In this document: one piece after another, positions 13,519-26,701 of the stretch
Position numbering within the stretch: the stretch's first letter is position 1
Layout of the letters: the number at the start of each line of letters is the position of its first letter
DNA from: an uncultured Muribaculaceae bacterium
Lineage (GTDB): Bacteria; Bacteroidota; Bacteroidia; Bacteroidales; Muribaculaceae
Length of the DNA stretch: 34,082 nucleotides
Assembly: GCA_947628285.1 (NCBI GenBank)
Contig: CANQZK010000004.1
Location: forward strand, 1-34,082
Direction: 5' to 3'
Notes under the pieces: generated by a model
What the model was told of the DNA's origin: nothing
Seen by the model: only the letters and a program-made list of their open reading frames with translations
Database searches by the model: none
Made by a program: the position numbers and the translations under genes

Positions 13519-14973
13519 ATGAACCGCAAACTATACGACAAACTGATATTCGACCTGTCATGTCCCGGACGCCGCGGCTACGACATGCCGCGCCGCCTCT
13601 ACGACGACATTGAACTGCCCGATGCGGTGCTCAGACAGCAGGCTCCCGCCCTGCCCGAGGTTGACGAGCCCACCCTGGTGCGCCACTATACCAACCAGTC
13701 GACCAACAACTTCGGCGTCGACACGGGCTTCTATCCCCTGGGTTCATGTACCATGAAGTACAACCCCAAAATCAACGAATCGCTGGGCGCCGACCCCGTC
13801 ATCGCCGCGCTGCACCCCGCCCAGCCCGCATCTACGGTCCAGGGCGCCCTCAAGCTCTACCGCATGCTGGAGAACATGCTCAGCGAGATAGGCGGCATGG
13901 CCGAGTTCACACTCAACCCCTTTGCCGGCGCTCACGGCGAGCTCACCGGCCTGATGGTCATCCACGCCTACCACGACAGCCGCGGCGACTCGGCCCGCAC
14001 CCGCGTAATCGTGCCCGACTCGGCCCACGGCACCAACCCCGCATCGGCCATGATAGCCGGCTACGAAGTGATCGAGGTCAAGAGCCTGGCCGACGGCACC
14101 GTGGATGTCGACGACCTCCGCTCCAAGCTGGATGAGACCGTGGCCGCCGTCATGATGACCAACCCCAACACCACCGGCATGTTCGAGAAGAACATCCCCG
14201 CCATAGCCGACGCCGTGCACGCCGCCGGCGCCCTGCTCTACTACGACGGCGCCAACCTCAACCCCATGTTGGGCGTTGCCCGTCCCGGCGACATGGGCTT
14301 CGACGTGATGCACATCAACCTGCACAAGACCTTCTCGACGCCTCACGGCGGCGGCGGTCCCGGCGCAGGCCCCGTTGGCGTCCGCAAGGGTCTGGAGGAA
14401 TTCCTGCCCTCGCCCCGCATACGTCGCCGCGGCGACGGCTCGCTCTACGTCGAGCAGACTTCGGACACCGCCCTGGGCCGCGTGTCATCGTGGTTCGGCA
14501 ACTACACCGTCTTCATCAAGGCCTTCGCCTACATCCTAGCAATGGGCGCCGACGGCCTGGCAATGGCCGGCAAGCTGGCCACGCTCAACGCCAACTATGT
14601 CATGAACGCCCTCAAGGACGTGTACCTGCTGCCCGTGCCCGGCCCGTGCAAGCACGAATTCGTGTTCGACGGCCTGGCCGACAAGTCGACCGGCGTCACC
14701 ACGCTCAACGTGGCCAAGCGCCTGCTGGACCTCGGCTTCCACGCCCCCACCATCTACTTCCCGCTGCTGTTCCATGAGTCGCTCATGATTGAGCCCACCG
14801 AGAGCGAGAGCCGCGAGACCCTGGACGTATTCATCGCCGCCATGCGTCAGATTGCACGCGAAGCCGCCGAGACACCTGACCTTGTCAAGTCAGCCCCCCA
14901 CGACACCCCCGCTGTGCACCCCGACGACACCGAGGCAGCCCTGCATCCCAAGGTGAAATTCTCCGACTTATGA
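13519..14973 (+). CDS. gcvPB: Glycine dehydrogenase (decarboxylating) subunit 2
   Basis: 484 aa; YPLGSCTMKYNPK, PDSAHGTNPASA, DVMHINLHKTFSTPHGGGGPGAGPVGV (PLP lysine region). Confidence 0.97.
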   Translation: MNRKLYDKLIFDLSCPGRRGYDMPRRLYDDIELPDAVLRQQAPALPEVDEPTLVRHYTNQSTNNFGVDTGFYPLGSCTMKYNPKINESLGADPVIAALHPAQPASTVQGALKLYRMLENMLSEIGGMAEFTLNPFAGAHGELTGLMVIHAYHDSRGDSARTRVIVPDSAHGTNPASAMIAGYEVIEVKSLADGTVDVDDLRSKLDETVAAVMMTNPNTTGMFEKNIPAIADAVHAAGALLYYDGANLNPMLGVARPGDMGFDVMHINLHKTFSTPHGGGGPGAGPVGVRKGLEEFLPSPRIRRRGDGSLYVEQTSDTALGRVSSWFGNYTVFIKAFAYILAMGADGLAMAGKLATLNANYVMNALKDVYLLPVPGPCKHEFVFDGLADKSTGVTTLNVAKRLLDLGFHAPTIYFPLLFHESLMIEPTESESRETLDVFIAAMRQIAREAAETPDLVKSAPHDTPAVHPDDTEAALHPKVKFSDL

Positions 14974-16283
14974 AAGCCGCATTCGGCACCATCATAATCG
15001 GCGCCGGCCCGGGCGGATATCCGCTCGCGGCCGCGCTCGCCGCGGCGGGCGAGAACGTTGCCGTCATAGAGCGCTCGCACCCCGGCGGCACATGCCTCAA
15101 CCGCGGATGCATCCCCACCAAGTGCCTGGCCGCATCGGCCGAGCGCGCCCTGGAGTGCGCCGGAGCTGCGGACTTCGGCATTCACACCGGCCCGGTGAGC
15201 GTTGACTATCCCGCCGTGGCCGCACGCATGAACGCCGTGGTGGCCGAACTCCGCTCCCAGGTACTGGCCGTGCTGGGCCGCTGCACCGTCATCGAGGGCG
15301 AGGCCCGGCTGCTGCCCGGAATGGAAGTAGCCGTGGGCGAGGACGTATACGCAGCCCCGCGCCGCATAGTCATCGCCACCGGCTCGCAGCCCGCCCGCCT
15401 GCCCGTCGAGGGCGCCGACCTGGCTCTGACCAGCGACGATGTCCTGGCCCTGGAACAGCTGCCGCAGAGCGCCGTGATTATCGGCGGCGGCGTCATAGGC
15501 ATGGAATTCGCATCCATCATGGCCGCCCTGGGCTCGGAAGTCAGCGTGATTGAATACTGCAAGGAAATTCTGCCGCCCTTCGACCCCGAAATTGCCAAGC
15601 GCCTGCGCCAGAAACTCACGCGCCGGGGCATCGACATCATGACCGGAGCCGGAGTGACCCGCCTGGAGCGCAATGCCGACGGCGGCGGCGTCACCGTGCA
15701 CTTCGCCGACAAGCGCGGCGAACGTCAGATGCAGGCCGACTGCGCCGTCATGGCCGTGGGACGTCGCCCCGTCGTTCCTGCCGGAGTGGCCGAAGCCGGT
15801 GTCAACCTCACCGACCGCGGATTCATAGCCGTAGACAGCCTGATGCGCACCTCCGCGCCCGGCATCTACGCCATAGGCGACGTCAACGGCCTGTGCCAGT
15901 TGGCCCACGCCGCATCCGCCCAGGCCAACGTAGTCCTGACCGGCGAAGCCGACATCTTCAACGCCGCCGCCACACCCGCCGTAGTCTTCACCGTGCCTGA
16001 AGTAGCCGCCGTAGGGCCGCTGACGTTCGCTGACCGCGCCGTCGACGTCATCCGTCGCAACTACGCCTCCAACGGCAAAGCCCTGGCCATGGGCGCCGAT
16101 GGCGTGCTCAAGCTCACCGTCGACCGTGAGACCCGCGCCCTGCTGGCCGCCACCGCCATTGGCCCCCACGCCGCCGACCTCATAGCCGAAGCCACCATCC
16201 TCATAAAAGAAGGCACCCCCCTGGAGCAGATCCCCCGCCGCTACACCCACGTCCACCCCACCCTCTCCGAGCTGTTCGTTTAG
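14970..16283 (+). CDS. lpdA: Dihydrolipoyl dehydrogenase
   Basis: 437 aa; GAGPGGYPLA, GGTCLNRGCIPTKCL redox site, VIIGGGVIGMEFAS, YTHVHPTLSEL; 4-bp overlap with gcvPB. Confidence 0.93.
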   Translation: MKAAFGTIIIGAGPGGYPLAAALAAAGENVAVIERSHPGGTCLNRGCIPTKCLAASAERALECAGAADFGIHTGPVSVDYPAVAARMNAVVAELRSQVLAVLGRCTVIEGEARLLPGMEVAVGEDVYAAPRRIVIATGSQPARLPVEGADLALTSDDVLALEQLPQSAVIIGGGVIGMEFASIMAALGSEVSVIEYCKEILPPFDPEIAKRLRQKLTRRGIDIMTGAGVTRLERNADGGGVTVHFADKRGERQMQADCAVMAVGRRPVVPAGVAEAGVNLTDRGFIAVDSLMRTSAPGIYAIGDVNGLCQLAHAASAQANVVLTGEADIFNAAATPAVVFTVPEVAAVGPLTFADRAVDVIRRNYASNGKALAMGADGVLKLTVDRETRALLAATAIGPHAADLIAEATILIKEGTPLEQIPRRYTHVHPTLSELFV

Positions 16284-16288
16284 GATTT

Positions 16289-16379
16289 GTAGGGACGCGA
16301 TTAATCGCGTCCACGTAGATAGTTGATTACCTGATGGTTAAGCCGCTATCAACGTGGACGCGATTAATCGCGTCCCTAC
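16289..16379. repeat. Nested inverted repeat: two head-to-head copies of GTAGGGACGCGATTAATCGCGTCCACGT(A/T)GATAG
   Basis: Arms 16289-16322 and 16346-16379 (34 bp, one mismatch, 23-nt spacer); each contains the perfect 20-bp palindrome GGACGCGATTAATCGCGTCC (16293-16312, 16356-16375). Confidence 0.97.
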
Positions 16380-16409
16380 TTTTTACGGAAATTTAATAGT
16401 TTTGCTACC

Positions 16410-18824
16410 TCAGCAATTCTGCGGGTCGAAATTAGTCCAGTCTGTTGTATCTGAGGTGCCGCGATTAAGGTCTATTTTTTCAGGAGGATACAGCCAATTG
16501 CCGAATTCGTCCTTTATAATGATGCCTCCGCGAAGCCGCTTGTCACGGTTTTCCGGAAGTTGCATATATTCCCACAGCGCATTATGCTTGTATGGTGCCT
16601 CCGGGTCGCTCCTTTTCGTTTTCGTATCGAAAAGGAAAATATCACCGCTCTTCATACGTATGATAAAATCGACATAGAACAAGTCTTTTTCGCCGATAGA
16701 ATTGGTATAACCGATGGCATAATGGGCCTTGCCGTGGTCGCCATTCTTATACCACCATTCTATCACATTGCTGTTACTGTCCAGGAAGTCGGCAAAGCTA
16801 TGCTCCGGCGTAGAGGAATTCGGACCGCTGTACTCCATAAACGGCAGTAATGCGTGATACGCTATTTCAGGTCGTTTGGTATGGTTGTCAATGGTATAGG
16901 AGCGTTCAGCCGGCACCACCCATTCAAAATGCCTGAAAGCGCGACGCTTGGCCGCAGCCTTACGTCTGCGCAATATCTCGGTATACTTTTGAATGGCTTT
17001 ATAAATAAGCCTTTCGAACTTAGGGCGGTTATTATGCTCATTATCATTGAAGAGTATTATCTTCATGGCATCATACTCAAATACCTCAAAAAGTTCTTCC
17101 ATCACCTCCTTGACAGCGCCGGCAAGCGTCTTGACGCTCTGTTGCTCATAGTCATTGCCCAGCAACCGTTTGCACAGTGCAAGGAACATAGCCGTGATAT
17201 CGGCCACATTATTTACATATGTCGCCTTGCTTTTAATAAGTTTGGAACCAACCTCGCCGGTCATTTCAAGGTCACGGACAATGTCCGTCCCGATGCATTT
17301 TACATCAAAACGTATGTTTTGTATAGTTTTTGCCTTCTGAAGGTTGTGATAAGCCTCGTTAGTGGCGCCTGCGCCTGCGCCTGCGCCTGCCGGTATGCCG
17401 TCGCCGTCGCCGTCGCCGTCGCCGAAAAGGTCATCCTCCGTAAAGAACGATGAGCCACCACCCTCAAGCTTCCATTCAAGCATAAATGTCTTTATGAGAA
17501 TCTCCTTGAAGTCAGTGCCGAGGCGGTTTCGGTCGGCCGACAGTCGGTCGCGGTATTCGGAATCAAGGACAATATTCGTAATCCCCTCGCGTCGTACAGC
17601 CCTGACGTTTGTGGCTAAGTAATCCATATCGTCCTTTACGATCTCGATTATATCTTTCGAGAGGTTTGTATATACATATCCTTGATTGAGCCGCTGGTCG
17701 GTATAATAATCCTGTTCCGGCATTCTGAGTATGCGCCCCACAGTCTGCGCCGAAAATTTGAAGCTCTCAACCTTGCGGAAGATGAGAAGCACCGCTGCAC
17801 GCGGACAATCCCAACCCAGAGCAATAGCCTGCTTGAAAAGCAGCACCTCGGTGGGGTCGTTGGGGCGGTCGATGAGTTCCATGTTGTCGGTCTTTTCGCC
17901 TGACAGCCAAATTGCGAGTTTGCCGTTGGCGGTGTTTATACCATAGGCATCCAGCGTGGCTATAACCTCATCCCTGACTTTTGTATCGTCGGCCGTGAGC
18001 TTTTCGCTGTCGTCGTTAGGGAGCTGTATAAGCAAAAGCGGATTGACATCGGAGCCCTCGGCACGGTAGAGACCGGCAAGTTCTTCACGCTTCTGCAACG
18101 CTAACCATATGAGGTGCTGATTGAGCGAGCCGTGCGGGGCGTTGAAATTCAGTGCCGGATTAAGGACAATGTTTTCCTTAATCATTCTTTCCTCAATCAC
18201 ATCAGTGCGTTGTACAGTAACCCATTCGGCATCATTTCGCGGGTCAGGAGTAGCCGACATGCGTATCTCCACTTTGGGCTGAATGGTGGCAAGAACCTTC
18301 TCTGATTTCTTTGCCATTTTACTTCCGAATTGATGCTCCTCGTCTATCACCAGCACGATGGGAATACCGTTATCGTCCTGCGTGCGGCGGGTAATGTCAT
18401 AGAGCGATGCCGAGTTTTCCGTTTCGCGCACCAACAGGTTATTATCCTTGTTTACACTCTCCCAATTCACAAAGAGAATTTCGCCGGGGCGGATATAGCC
18501 GTCGGCCGAGTGGTCCAGTTCATCGAAGATAACAGGTCGCAGAGCACAGTTTTCGGTAAAATAGTTTTTCATCTTGAAGTAGCTCTGCTCATGCAGCTTG
18601 TTCGGGGCAATCCATATATAGGCAACCTCTGTAAACGGTGCATCGGGGCGCTCGGTCAGTTCCTGATTGAGCCGCATAAGCATTTCGGATGCCATCACGG
18701 TTTTGCCCGAGCCTGTGGGAGCTCTGAAAACCAATGTGTGGCGGTTCCCGCGCCGGCCCAACAGGTCAATCGTCTTGTTAACAAGTTCGTTAACGGCTTT
18801 CTGCTGGTATCGTAATTGTTTCAT
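16410..18824 (-). CDS. res: Type III restriction endonuclease, Res subunit (SF2 helicase plus nuclease)
   Basis: 804 aa; TLVFRAPTGSGKT Walker A, DEEHQ motif II, QTVGRILRMPEQ motif VI, C-terminal YVDFIIRMKSGDIFLFDTKT (PD-(D/E)xK-like); 4-bp overlap with mod. Confidence 0.92.
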   Translation of the reverse strand: MKQLRYQQKAVNELVNKTIDLLGRRGNRHTLVFRAPTGSGKTVMASEMLMRLNQELTERPDAPFTEVAYIWIAPNKLHEQSYFKMKNYFTENCALRPVIFDELDHSADGYIRPGEILFVNWESVNKDNNLLVRETENSASLYDITRRTQDDNGIPIVLVIDEEHQFGSKMAKKSEKVLATIQPKVEIRMSATPDPRNDAEWVTVQRTDVIEERMIKENIVLNPALNFNAPHGSLNQHLIWLALQKREELAGLYRAEGSDVNPLLLIQLPNDDSEKLTADDTKVRDEVIATLDAYGINTANGKLAIWLSGEKTDNMELIDRPNDPTEVLLFKQAIALGWDCPRAAVLLIFRKVESFKFSAQTVGRILRMPEQDYYTDQRLNQGYVYTNLSKDIIEIVKDDMDYLATNVRAVRREGITNIVLDSEYRDRLSADRNRLGTDFKEILIKTFMLEWKLEGGGSSFFTEDDLFGDGDGDGDGIPAGAGAGAGATNEAYHNLQKAKTIQNIRFDVKCIGTDIVRDLEMTGEVGSKLIKSKATYVNNVADITAMFLALCKRLLGNDYEQQSVKTLAGAVKEVMEELFEVFEYDAMKIILFNDNEHNNRPKFERLIYKAIQKYTEILRRRKAAAKRRAFRHFEWVVPAERSYTIDNHTKRPEIAYHALLPFMEYSGPNSSTPEHSFADFLDSNSNVIEWWYKNGDHGKAHYAIGYTNSIGEKDLFYVDFIIRMKSGDIFLFDTKTKRSDPEAPYKHNALWEYMQLPENRDKRLRGGIIIKDEFGNWLYPPEKIDLNRGTSDTTDWTNFDPQNC
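17365..17424 (-). repeat. Two adjacent in-frame hexanucleotide microsatellites in res, encoding GDGDGDGDG and AGAGAGAG
   Basis: (gcgcct)x4 plus partial at 17365-17391, then (gccgtc)x4 plus partial at 17397-17424. Confidence 0.95.
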
Positions 18825-20677
18825 TGTGCACCTCCTTCCGGCTCTGCGGCGAACAGTCCGCCCATCTGAATATCATCCGTTTCTGTGTTTTCTTCCACAA
18901 TGTCGTCGGCAAGGAACTTAGGCTTTTGCCGGGGCAGCACTTTACGGTAAGCATCGTAGATGGCCTGCGGCAGGGCGCATAGCGTCACGCGGTCGGGCAC
19001 CTCGGCAAATTCATCATCATAAGCATAGCTTCCGTGCGAAAAAACATACACCTTGATTTTCTCGCCCTCCTTCGGCATTGTCTTGATAATATCGGCTATG
19101 AACGGTATAGCCCTTTCGTCATAAATGACCAGCATACGCCGGCCGCCATGCTCAAAGTATCGGGCATACGTCGGGTTCAACTTGCGGCCACCGAACAGAG
19201 CCTCGGTATACAGATCGTTCTTTATGCAGAGCAACCCCGTTGAAGCCTGAACCAGCCGACGCATATTCTTGACTGTGCGCTCGCGCGACAAAAATTCCGT
19301 GCGATAGTAGCGGAGATTGTTGTCATGCAGACCCTCTACAAATTCACCGTTCGGCTTGGTATAGCCAAGGATAACGCGCTTGTTGCGCTCATAGGTCACA
19401 TCCTCGCAAATATTCTTTTCGTTGTTGGTGCAAAGAATGCAAGTGCGCTTGCCCCCATCATCGGCATTAAGCTGCATCACCGCATGAAGCGTAGTGCCCG
19501 ACCCGGCGAAGAAGTCGAGGACTGTTTTACTTGGGATAAAGTTAATTAAAAATTGAACAAGAGGCGATGGTTTTGGATTATTGAAAACTTTTTCGTGGAA
19601 GATGCCGGCGTTAAGTTCGGTATTCGCGAACAAGCCATCTTTAACAATATCACCAGGAAGTATTTTAGTAGGTCTGTTTACCGATTCTTTTGTCTTTAGG
19701 TAATAAGGTACAAACGATTCGGATTTGACCCAAATTTCAGTTCCAGCAGCAAGTTCCTCCCGTATCTTTTTATCAGTAGCCCAATAGGAATGACCTTTGA
19801 GTATAACGGGAGTTATGAAAAAGCCATTTTCAGCAGTTGCATCTGCCATAAGTTCCCATTGCGGATTTCTGCCGTTTTCTTTAAGACCAGCACTGTAAGT
19901 GCCATCAGGCAGTGAAGTTCGCACTGAATTTGCGGGAAACGTTATCGTTTTAATCTTTTCTTTTGCCTTTGTCAAAGAAGGCATTCCTGATGTAGCAGAA
20001 ACGACTCCCCTAAATTCTTTTATTGCCTTTGCATCACGAGCAACACACAAAACAAATTCAGCGTTGCGTCGTAAAATTGGAGAGCTATTGTCCGGCCGAT
20101 TCGTACTCACCCAAATATATGTTTCAATATAATTAGGCTCGAGGAAAATTTCTTTGCAGAGATTTACTAACTGCGACATTTCATGGTCGCCTATAGAAAT
20201 GAACATGAGACCTGACTTTGAAAGAAGTTGTTTGGCTATTTTGAGACGTTTAGCCATAAAAGAAAGCCAAAGAGAATGTTTATAATCGTCATCTGCTCCC
20301 ACAAATGAATCGTTATAAACAAAACCGCCATCTCTATCAGTATTTCCAGTATTGTACGGAGGGTCGATGTAGATAACATCAATCTTACCGGCGTGGGTGT
20401 ATGACAGCTCTGTAAGCGCGGCGAGGTTATCACCTTCGATAATTATATGATTGGGCGCATAGGGATTGTCCGAGATTATCGGGTGGACTTTCGCGTCGTT
20501 GCGCTCCACAAGGATAGGCAGTTCCTCGCGAAGGCGCTCCTCGATGTCTTCGGGTTTGTCTTCCCATACAAGACCGTACTTTTTGTGGCCGCGGATGAGC
20601 TGGAGCAACGCGGCTTTTTCCTCGCTGCTCAAACCGTCCAGGTCCTGTATTTTTCGGGCAAGTTCTGTCTTGTTCAT
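18821..20677 (-). CDS. mod: Type III DNA methyltransferase, Mod subunit (N6-adenine); the ORF extends to 20701
   Basis: DVIYIDPPYNTGN catalytic motif and VLDFFAGSGTTLHAVMQLN AdoMet motif (beta-class order); likely start MNKTELARK at 20677. Confidence 0.92.
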   Translation of the reverse strand: MNKTELARKIQDLDGLSSEEKAALLQLIRGHKKYGLVWEDKPEDIEERLREELPILVERNDAKVHPIISDNPYAPNHIIIEGDNLAALTELSYTHAGKIDVIYIDPPYNTGNTDRDGGFVYNDSFVGADDDYKHSLWLSFMAKRLKIAKQLLSKSGLMFISIGDHEMSQLVNLCKEIFLEPNYIETYIWVSTNRPDNSSPILRRNAEFVLCVARDAKAIKEFRGVVSATSGMPSLTKAKEKIKTITFPANSVRTSLPDGTYSAGLKENGRNPQWELMADATAENGFFITPVILKGHSYWATDKKIREELAAGTEIWVKSESFVPYYLKTKESVNRPTKILPGDIVKDGLFANTELNAGIFHEKVFNNPKPSPLVQFLINFIPSKTVLDFFAGSGTTLHAVMQLNADDGGKRTCILCTNNEKNICEDVTYERNKRVILGYTKPNGEFVEGLHDNNLRYYRTEFLSRERTVKNMRRLVQASTGLLCIKNDLYTEALFGGRKLNPTYARYFEHGGRRMLVIYDERAIPFIADIIKTMPKEGEKIKVYVFSHGSYAYDDEFAEVPDRVTLCALPQAIYDAYRKVLPRQKPKFLADDIVEENTETDDIQMGGLFAAEPEGGAQ

Positions 20678-20809
20678 CACGACAGATTGAATTGTCGCCA
20701 ATACCCAACTGCGACGTGGTTACACAAAAAGGCGCGGGTATCATACCGTTGCTATCTTTCAATCAAGGCATCGCCAAACGCCTTTGCAGTAAGAAAACAA
20801 CGCAGATAC

Positions 20810-21031
20810 TCACGCCGTTATGTAATACCCCAAACCCACTCCATGCCCTAAAGGCATAGAATGAGCCCGGATAGGTATATACATACCCGTGAGCGTCCAC
20901 TTTGCAATATTCTTGACTGCTGAAAAATTTGGCGATTTTTGATTGACAAGAATAAAGCGCGAGTAAACGCCTTTTATTTCATTTGCCTCCCGCCTCGCTT
21001 CCTCGCTTGGAAGACGCCCGGCGTGAGTCAT
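20810..21031 (-). CDS. Small ORF of uncertain coding status in the leader upstream of mod
   Basis: MTHAGRLPSEEARREANEIKGVYSRFILVNQKSPNFSAVKNIAKWTLTGMYIPIRAHSMPLGHGVGLGYYITA; ATG just downstream of a TACTTTTG box. Confidence 0.25.
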   Translation of the reverse strand: MTHAGRLPSEEARREANEIKGVYSRFILVNQKSPNFSAVKNIAKWTLTGMYIPIRAHSMPLGHGVGLGYYITA

Positions 21032-21034
21032 GGG

Positions 21035-21042
21035 CAAAAGTA
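21035..21042 (-). promoter_or_regulatory. Candidate -7 box TACTTTTG (minus) for the RM operon
   Basis: Plus-strand CAAAAGTA; first good TAnnTTTG match upstream of mod. Confidence 0.4.
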
Positions 21043-21135
21043 CGTAATTTTCTGAAATTACGCCCCAAATAGTCCGCTAAATTTTTCAGTAAACCCGATA
21101 AAAGGTTCAAATCGCCGCTCCGCGGCTTTATAATA

Positions 21136-21160
21136 GTAGGGGCGCACGGCCCGTGCGCCC
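21136..21160. repeat. GTAGGGGCGCACGGCCCGTGCGCCC palindromic intergenic element
   Basis: GGGCGCACGG (21140-21149), central C, CCGTGCGCCC (21151-21160); shares the GTAGGGRCGC leader with 16289-16379. Confidence 0.9.
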
Positions 21161-21236
21161 GCGTCGCGACATACGCTTAGTTGTCACGTTATGAACCTAT
21201 TGCAACGCGGATACACGAGCGTGCATCCATACGATT

Positions 21237-23213
21237 TTATCGCAGGCGGGATTTGAGTTCGAGGCCCAGGGCGGTCTTGGCCTCGATGTGGTGCATGACC
21301 ATGGTGACGAAGGGGTCCTTCTCGAATTCGCCGCGGACGTTCTCGAAATCGAGCCGGGTGCGGCCGTCGCTGCCGTCCACGCCGAATCCGATGCGCGAGA
21401 TGGCCGAGAATTCCTTGCGGGCGTCGTCGTAGACCATGCGGTCCAGCGTGACGACGCTCTCGGTCCAGCGGTCGACGATGGCGCGGATGTCGTCTGCGGT
21501 GAGGCTGTCCAGGGGCTTGTGGTACCAGCGGGTGAAGTTGTCGGCCACCCAGGTCCATTCCATGTCGTAATAGTCGGTGTGGAGTTGGCGCAGGCGGCTG
21601 TCAACTTCATCGAGCGATGTGACGGCGCCGCTGCCGATGTCGGCGGTGAGACGCTTGATCTCGCTCTTGGGGGCGAGCAGGCCGCAGATGTCCACCCACT
21701 CGCCGGCGCCGGCCTCGGCGGTGGGACGCAGACGGCGGCGGATGTCCTCGTCGTCCTGCAGGGGTGCGCCCTCGAGGCGTTTTATGACGGAGTTGCCCAT
21801 GAATTTGTCGATGGCCAGGGAGTAGTACATCTTGCCCTTGTCCAGCGCGCGGGCGGTCAGCGACAGGCCCTGATAGGAGTAGACCTCGCTGGTGGGGCCG
21901 CCGGTGAGGCGCAGTGTCTCAAGGAGTTCGGCGCCGTCCATCATCTTGGACACGGTGTAGGGGCTGAGCAGGTTGAAGTTGATGAGGTCCAGCTTGCGTG
22001 CGGCGGTGCGGCGGTCGCGCTTGGGCCATTTCATGGCGTCGCGGATTGTGCCCACGCTCTTGAGGTTGACGCCGGGCACCAGATGGAAGCGGCCGCCTTT
22101 CTCGATGAGGTAGGAGAAGGGCAGGCGCGATGTGTCCGGATGGCACACCAGGCGGCCCATCACCAGCGAGAAGGCGCCGATGCGGGCGGGCCAGAGGATG
22201 TAGCTGTCGGATGTGGTCTTGGAGCCGCGCTCTACGACGCCCTGATGGATGGGCCCGAGCTTGTACATGTGGTTGCTCTGGTTGGAACCCGAGCCGGCGT
22301 TGAGGAATGAGAACATGCCGGCGATGAGCAGGCTGGACTTGTGCATCGTCACTGTGTAGGGACCGCCGAACACGGCAGCGGCCTCGCCGTTCTCGCAGAT
22401 GCAATTGGCAAAGAAAAGTGAATCATGGGCCGAGAACAGGCGTGTCAGCTGTGTGCCCTGGCCTATGAAGGCGTGGGCAGCCACGGCGCCCTCGTCCATA
22501 GTGGAGCCGGCGGCCATAATGAAGTCCTTGGCCAGGACGTTGGCGCCTACGAATATGGGTGCCTCGGGCTCGGACATGAGGGAGCCGTTGGTCAGACGCG
22601 AGGCGCCGTCAATGACGGCACAGGGGCCGATGTATACGTTGTTGATGCTGCCTACATTAATTATACGCGCGCCCGAGCACACGCGCCCGCGAGTGCTGCG
22701 GCGGGCGTCGACGTAGCGTCTTATCATGCCGTGCAGGCCCTGCATCAGTGCGGTGTCGTGGCGGTACATGGCTATCAGGTAGGCCACCTGGGCCGAGAGG
22801 GTATCGTAGATGGGCACCTCGCGGCCGCCGGTCTCGTTGAGCACCGACACCTCGACGCCGTTGCCGAAGGCGCTCTCGCCGTTCATGGCTATGCGGCCGG
22901 CGTTCTCAATGAGCACGTCGTCCTCTATGTCATAGTCCACGATGTAGTTGGTCACCTTGTTGATGAGCACGTCGTTGCCCACGGTGCAGTTGTGAATCAG
23001 CGCGTTGTAGATGCCGCTGCGCAGGGGGATGCAACCGGAGCGGATAAAGACCTTGTCGGTGGTGCCCAGGCGAACATTGCCCGAAAATGTGACGTTTTTA
23101 TAATTAGATGTAACAAAAGGATCGGCCACACGGACCAGCGACCAGTCGCCGGCAGTGCAGCCCTGCGATTCGAGCGCGGCTATCTCGGCCGCGTTTAATT
23201 CACGGTAAGTCAT
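21237..23213 (-). CDS. DUF4954-like protein, left-handed beta-helix / hexapeptide-repeat type
   Basis: 658 aa; GCIPLRSGIYNALIHNCTVGNDVLINKVTNYIVDYDIEDDVLIENAG and GSINNVYIGPCAVIDGASRLTNGSL repeats; matches my recollection of the Bacteroidetes DUF4954 family. Confidence 0.8.
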   Translation of the reverse strand: MTYRELNAAEIAALESQGCTAGDWSLVRVADPFVTSNYKNVTFSGNVRLGTTDKVFIRSGCIPLRSGIYNALIHNCTVGNDVLINKVTNYIVDYDIEDDVLIENAGRIAMNGESAFGNGVEVSVLNETGGREVPIYDTLSAQVAYLIAMYRHDTALMQGLHGMIRRYVDARRSTRGRVCSGARIINVGSINNVYIGPCAVIDGASRLTNGSLMSEPEAPIFVGANVLAKDFIMAAGSTMDEGAVAAHAFIGQGTQLTRLFSAHDSLFFANCICENGEAAAVFGGPYTVTMHKSSLLIAGMFSFLNAGSGSNQSNHMYKLGPIHQGVVERGSKTTSDSYILWPARIGAFSLVMGRLVCHPDTSRLPFSYLIEKGGRFHLVPGVNLKSVGTIRDAMKWPKRDRRTAARKLDLINFNLLSPYTVSKMMDGAELLETLRLTGGPTSEVYSYQGLSLTARALDKGKMYYSLAIDKFMGNSVIKRLEGAPLQDDEDIRRRLRPTAEAGAGEWVDICGLLAPKSEIKRLTADIGSGAVTSLDEVDSRLRQLHTDYYDMEWTWVADNFTRWYHKPLDSLTADDIRAIVDRWTESVVTLDRMVYDDARKEFSAISRIGFGVDGSDGRTRLDFENVRGEFEKDPFVTMVMHHIEAKTALGLELKSRLR

Positions 23214-26599: not shown

Positions 26600-26605
26600 T
26601 TTTTC

Positions 26606-26694
26606 AGACAGAAAGACATATTTCCGACAGGAAATTTCAAACATAAAGACATAAAGACAAAAAGACATAATTTTGTTTTTATGTCTTTCTGTCT
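26606..26694. terminator. Probable bidirectional terminator between convergent nhaA and ribD
   Basis: AGACAGAAAGACATA (26606-26620) pairs with TATGTCTTTCTGTCT (26680-26694); T-rich/A-rich flanks; internal AAAGACATAA copies allow alternative hairpins. Confidence 0.6.
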
Positions 26695-26701
26695 AAAAAT
26701 G

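Follow-up and report, generated by a model that had tools for sequence, protein, structure and literature searches.

Does a palindrome at each edge of a restriction cassette mark the place where that cassette entered a genome, or is it there for other reasons? The question is raised by a stretch of 34,082 nucleotides from an uncultured Muribaculaceae bacterium (GenBank assembly GCA_947628285.1, contig CANQZK010000004.1), here called the window, in which a type III restriction-modification (RM) pair, mod-res (16410-20701, minus strand), stands between lpdA and a DUF4954 gene. A first-pass annotation suggested that the palindromes beside this pair may have served as boundaries for insertion or recombination of the cassette.

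The left core neighbour is the last gene of the gcv (glycine-cleavage) cluster, an lpdA-like dihydrolipoyl dehydrogenase gene (14970..16283, plus strand; Pfam and NCBIfam matches), and the order gcvPB-lpdA is conserved in the genus. The right core neighbour is a DUF4954/DUF6819 gene (21237..23213, minus strand; Pfam DUF4954, 3.7e-203), and the 3' ends of the two genes point at each other across the cassette gap. Within the gap, mod (18821..20701, minus strand; likely start at the ATG at 20677) encodes a type III DNA methyltransferase, identified by Pfam N6_N4_Mtase (5.9e-30), by its motifs and by alignment with six relatives. Its DPPY motif (residue 113) precedes FAGSG (residue 398), which is the beta order. 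The type III restriction subunit of 804 aa is encoded by res (16410..18824, minus strand), identified by Pfam ResIII (1.4e-15), motifs and alignment; it has the Walker A motif APTGSGKT and a DEEH box of the DExH type. The Pfam domains of Res are all helicase-type (ResIII, DEAD, AAA), and a D...DTK-like stretch can be made out by eye near the C-terminus. At 17365-17424, res also carries in-frame hexanucleotide arrays (GCGCCT, 4.3 copies, and GCCGTC, 4.7 copies) that encode a GDGDGDGDG...AGAGAGA linker not present in relatives; a change in array length would preserve the frame.

The first-pass annotation described the pair as lower in GC and different in codon usage from its neighbours, and every measure of composition agrees. 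The cassette has 41-53% GC against 56-69% in its surroundings, GC3 is 0.48 in mod and 0.575 in res against 0.80-0.86 in 13 neighbouring genes, and the codon-bias distance is 0.59-0.76 for mod and res against 0.13-0.27 for the same 13 genes. Given such foreign GC3 and codon bias, the pair was most likely acquired horizontally.

The palindromes at the two edges, a left inverted pair and a right element, are as real as that annotation had said. Both are REPINs of the GTAG super-family, that is, inverted pairs of GTAG-headed REPs, and they display the defining marks of such elements (PMC3116915, PMC3733652), with a GTAG tetranucleotide leading into an imperfect palindrome and an inverted hairpin doublet. 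The left REPIN (16289..16379) is intact and occupies the gap in which lpdA and res converge. Its REP, GTAGGGACGCGATTAATCGCGTCC, stands at 16289-16312 on the plus strand with an inverted copy at 16356-16379 on the minus strand, and its 41-nt arms (16289-16329 and 16339-16379) are 90% complementary. The predicted RNA fold reaches -68 kcal/mol (z -13), and a terminator-like site at 16356-16375 is followed by T-rich DNA. The right REPIN (21136..21232) is decayed: the REP GTAGGGGCGCACGGCCCGTGCGCCC at 21136-21160 on the plus strand has a degenerate inverted partner at about 21209-21232, an arm overlooked in the first pass that became visible when five complete REPINs from this genome were aligned with it. 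The pattern GTAGGGRCGCN{2,14}GCGYCC occurs three times in the window against none in 100 shuffles, and a search of mod and res themselves for a decayed REP found none. The window holds two further repeats: a 24/48-bp tandem repeat of about 10 copies at 1-281, which extends past the window start, and an AT-rich inverted and tandem repeat of ACATAAAG units at 26601-26699, in the convergent nhaA/ribD gap, which is unlike the REPs.

Are these REPINs, then, special to the cassette? The same pattern has 15 strict copies across the genome, against 0 for a backward-pattern control; these REPs have several cores, with GTAGGGRCGC common to all. Relatives have up to 75 copies, and 31 of 49 genomes of the genus have REPs sharing GTAGGGRCGC, with cores that are typically species-specific. 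Nine or ten of the 12 REP sites of the own genome lie away from RM genes. The idea of special cassette boundaries finds no support: the REPINs are dispersed, mostly without a defence gene nearby, and stand 4-5 bp past core-gene stop codons. We also looked for the site in relatives, as the annotation had advised. The lpdA/DUF4954 adjacency is absent from 80 DUF4954 loci (with 10-kb flanks where available) and from 30 lpdA loci, and hence no empty site, and no alternative cassette, can be seen; the closest lpdA among the relatives' genomes compared is only 59% identical.

Two broader roles for REPs were tried and rejected. They are no general markers of low-GC islands (mean gene GC 0.553 near REPs and 0.562 far from them), and a general link to defence islands is unsupported: the 117 REP-flanking genes include at most 3 of any other defence family. 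A PADLOC scan of 117 flanking and 117 more distant proteins, which excluded nearly all known RM sites and so tests other systems only, showed nothing consistent.

How far can ordinary REP behaviour account for the window? A gap just past the stop codon of a gene is a usual location for a REP. Each window REPIN keeps a distance of 4-5 bp to the stop codon of its core neighbour (4 bp in the case of the DUF4954 gene), and taken alone this placement may be quite ordinary, being also what normal REP behaviour would give. One could go further and propose that REPs and acquired cassettes simply settle in the same 3' gaps, convergent gaps in particular, that REPs in RM proteins are hits in dispensable genes, and that there is no mechanistic linkage at all. 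We regard this as possible but somewhat doubtful. It agrees with the position of both REPINs, with the terminator that the left one could provide, and with REP sites across the genus, where convergent gaps are enriched and divergent gaps depleted (29 convergent, 12 divergent and 77 unidirectional against 37, 53 and 141; P 0.006). Tolerance of insertions, together with the preference of both REPs and cassettes for 3' gaps, accounts for part of the window picture and perhaps for the whole.

What such a coincidence leaves unexplained is the enrichment of REPs at RM genes. The positions of DNA methyltransferase genes in the genus were compared with 310 listed REPs and one in G033. Nine of 59 RM methyltransferases have a REP within 1.5 kb where 0.65 are expected (P 1e-8), and 7 of 56 against 0.59 (P 1.5e-6) when the own genome, the source of the idea, is left out; these P values presuppose that placement is uniform and that the genes are independent, and are a guide only, the RM counts are small, the RM genes mutually homologous and the genomes draft MAGs. 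A stricter count omits the G033 case, because it surfaced when HsdM was retrieved as an orthologue and not from the position lists; this gives 8 of 56 against 0.65 and, also without the own genome, 6 of 53 against 0.59 (P 2e-5). The excess persists at 3 kb and, before the G033 case was added, at 5 kb. The argument is borne by the controls, which are flat: Wzx flippase genes, which are accessory as RM genes are, show 2 cases against 1.46 expected, and core GTPase genes 1 against 2.05. Genus-wide, the palindromes are thus associated non-randomly with RM genes, while most copies are not near any of them. The own genome contributes two cases, the window (C4) and a second RM locus at a contig end (G000:C45; L211:10-3021), where an HsdM-like gene and hsdS have 36-37% GC and a REPIN lies 237 bp from the hsdM start.

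REPs also lie within restriction genes. Five RM genes carry one in frame: mod in G065:C3 and G069:C25, hsdM in G016:C27 and G033:C13, and hsdR in G018:C8. Alignment with orthologues that have no REP places the insertions in linkers, and the protein domains are still recognisable; that the reading frames stay open is something that hits in dispensable genes would not explain. In Mod of G065 and G069 the REP is in the same linker, just ahead of D(T/I)GFRVLKLDSSNMEDVFY. The HsdM genes of G016 and G033 are each 27 nt longer, at the same codon, than those of the REP-less G035 and G064 (DIIARFRTL-VGTHGSCVQ in G016, DIIARFHAH-VGTHPGASE in G033). Each of the two proteins is nearer to a REP-less protein than to the other, and the insertions are independent. 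Palindromes at one codon in independent lineages show that mobile DNA lengthens defence enzymes and leaves their frames intact. Beyond RM and RAYT genes, the 211 distinct REPs examined gave only three hosts supported by Pfam (a Mur ligase, DUF5715 and a pseudouridine synthase), a tally that favours RM genes, since every known RM-near site was examined and other sites only in part. These three are putative hosts, and several further REPs in ORFs that lack Pfam support were not scored as coding. A different insert, of about 25 residues in frame (ASHDSGCTRASRKQASASHSLARNV), is found in Mod of G065:C11 (L207:8723-10750); it is unlike the REPs and has no second copy in the loci examined.

The RAYT-like transposase genes of the genus are of two main kinds. 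The first has NHxH, WQ and YIxNN motifs and, in six genomes (G065, G035, G010, G021, G026 and, as a fragment, G016), REPs within or adjoining the gene. Such insertions inside the gene are typical of tnpAREP subclass 2.4 (PMC6006769), and genes with both features occur here in relatives only. In two RAYT genes the middle is enlarged by repeats (L236:2016-2750 and L255:2709-3491), which in L236 are REP-encoded peptides (RAQNIAEMPSHG units). The second kind is class-1-like and carries no REPs. To it belongs the own genome's full Y1 gene, on C6, which was rejected as the cognate RAYT on both counts. In the own assembly, which is 90% complete, no subclass-2.4 RAYT was found, and the RAYT profile gives one weak truncated match on C1. 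RAYTs can vanish while REPs remain (PMC3733652). Viral contigs hold almost no RAYT of the subclass-2.4 kind.

This RAYT, too, is found near RM genes (2 of 14 against 0.08 expected, P 0.0025), and in this genus both REPs and the subclass-2.4-like RAYT are linked to RM loci beyond chance. In G032 (C51, L406) the order is hsdM-DUF1016-hsdS-RAYT-hsdR, and the ends of the RAYT gene overlap hsdS and hsdR. In G065 (C3) the RAYT lies 27 bp upstream of mod in a locus RAYT-mod-zeta-like-res, which contains all six REPs of that genome. In G016 (C275) a RAYT fragment precedes mod; it is part of a chimeric frame (L199:2007-2327), directly upstream of mod, in which a REP marks the junction between a helicase-like start and the C-terminus of a RAYT. 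The chimera is either a REP-mediated deletion or a misassembly, the contig being a 3.1-kb piece of a MAG.

The arrangement also occurs outside the phylum. A tblastn search of plasmids with the G032 RAYT gave four matches, three of them with no RM genes near. The other is in Monoglobus pectinilyticus (Clostridia), on a 518-kb replicon (NZ_OY725736.1), in the order mod-RAYT-mod-REP pair-res. In this restriction locus the RAYT gene, which holds an in-frame REP, GTAGGGGCGGATTCCATATCCGCCC, has a methyltransferase gene on either side and shares 8 bp with the second of them. Between that second mod and a res-like helicase gene stand two copies of this REP in inverted orientation. A RAYT inside two RM operons and this Clostridial one is the third thing that coincidence at tolerant sites leaves unexplained.

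The reading that we favour, with moderate confidence, is that the REP/RAYT elements themselves are of a known kind and that their linkage to RM loci, apparently not reported before, probably comes from hitchhiking. REPs and RAYT may travel or persist together with RM genes. RM loci are transferred frequently and are resistant to loss, and could for that reason be a principal means for RAYT and REPs to enter a genome and to persist in it. The single-strand activity of RAYT would copy the REPs, which would at first build up within and beside the RM genes and later scatter, surviving where they land in tolerant linkers or 3' gaps. In the window, hitchhiking as we infer it would be seen only as an outcome, and the linkage itself is an association whose causal direction could run either way.

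A stronger form of this idea is a composite unit, in which the RM operon carries a single-copy RAYT between genomes and guards it against deletion, because loss of an RM system can kill the cell, and the RM locus is the source from which REPs spread into the new genome. We think this unlikely. Were it true, it would answer the question, posed in 2011, of what prevents the loss of RAYTs.

More improbable still is the exchange suggested in the first pass, in which homologous or RAYT-driven recombination between REPs would insert and swap RM cassettes. Repeats at both cassette edges are what it would predict, and the chimeric frame of G016, joined at a REP, is one weak hint, if not an assembly error. 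With their different cores and spacers, the REPINs of the window share little homology and are neither a duplicated junction nor the two ends of one element, and the site is kept in no relative. Least probable of all is a regulatory role, in which RAYT-bound hairpins in RM transcripts or genes would tune or attenuate the methyltransferase and nuclease: in its favour are stable hairpins at RM ends and the gene overlaps, which suggest that RAYT is translationally coupled to hsdS and hsdR and, in Monoglobus, to mod, but REP positions vary among edge, linker and operon gap.

How does hitchhiking compare with what is known? By its genes the window pair looks like an ordinary member of the type III RM systems; like EcoP1I-type systems it has, in a single operon, a Mod with the order DPPY...FxGxG and, after it, a ResIII helicase subunit. 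The REPINs and RAYTs of Pseudomonas (Bertels and Rainey 2011, PMC3116915) likewise have inverted REP doublets, a GTAG head, species-specific families and a RAYT with adjoining REPs. A passage of that study describes the doublets as randomly distributed over extragenic space, whereas in these Bacteroidales REPs and RAYTs lie in and beside RM genes. To explain how single-copy RAYTs are preserved, the same study names an addiction system and a host function as candidates; a reproducible linkage to mobile, addictive RM loci would give a testable answer on RAYT survival and REP entry.

Subclass 2.4 of TnpAREP (PMC6006769) shares the signature motifs, the occurrence in Bacteroidetes and the REPs inside the tnpAREP gene; the difference is the linkage to RM operons, and the paper nowhere uses the word "restriction". 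Palindromes that sit in frame within protein genes have been described before, both as intragenic GTAG/CGTC REPs and as Rickettsia palindromic elements (PMC3733652); relatives sometimes share the insertion site, as in recB of Xanthomonas. Many of those elements are in replication and repair genes, and the word "restriction" is absent from that paper also. Identity with the Rickettsia elements is ruled out by the tag, CGTC there and GTAG here. No link of REPs or RAYTs to restriction genes was found in the literature searched, which was covered in part. Intragenic REPs, like REPs, REPINs and RAYTs in general, are known already, and the linkage of such elements to RM loci is apparently the new part.
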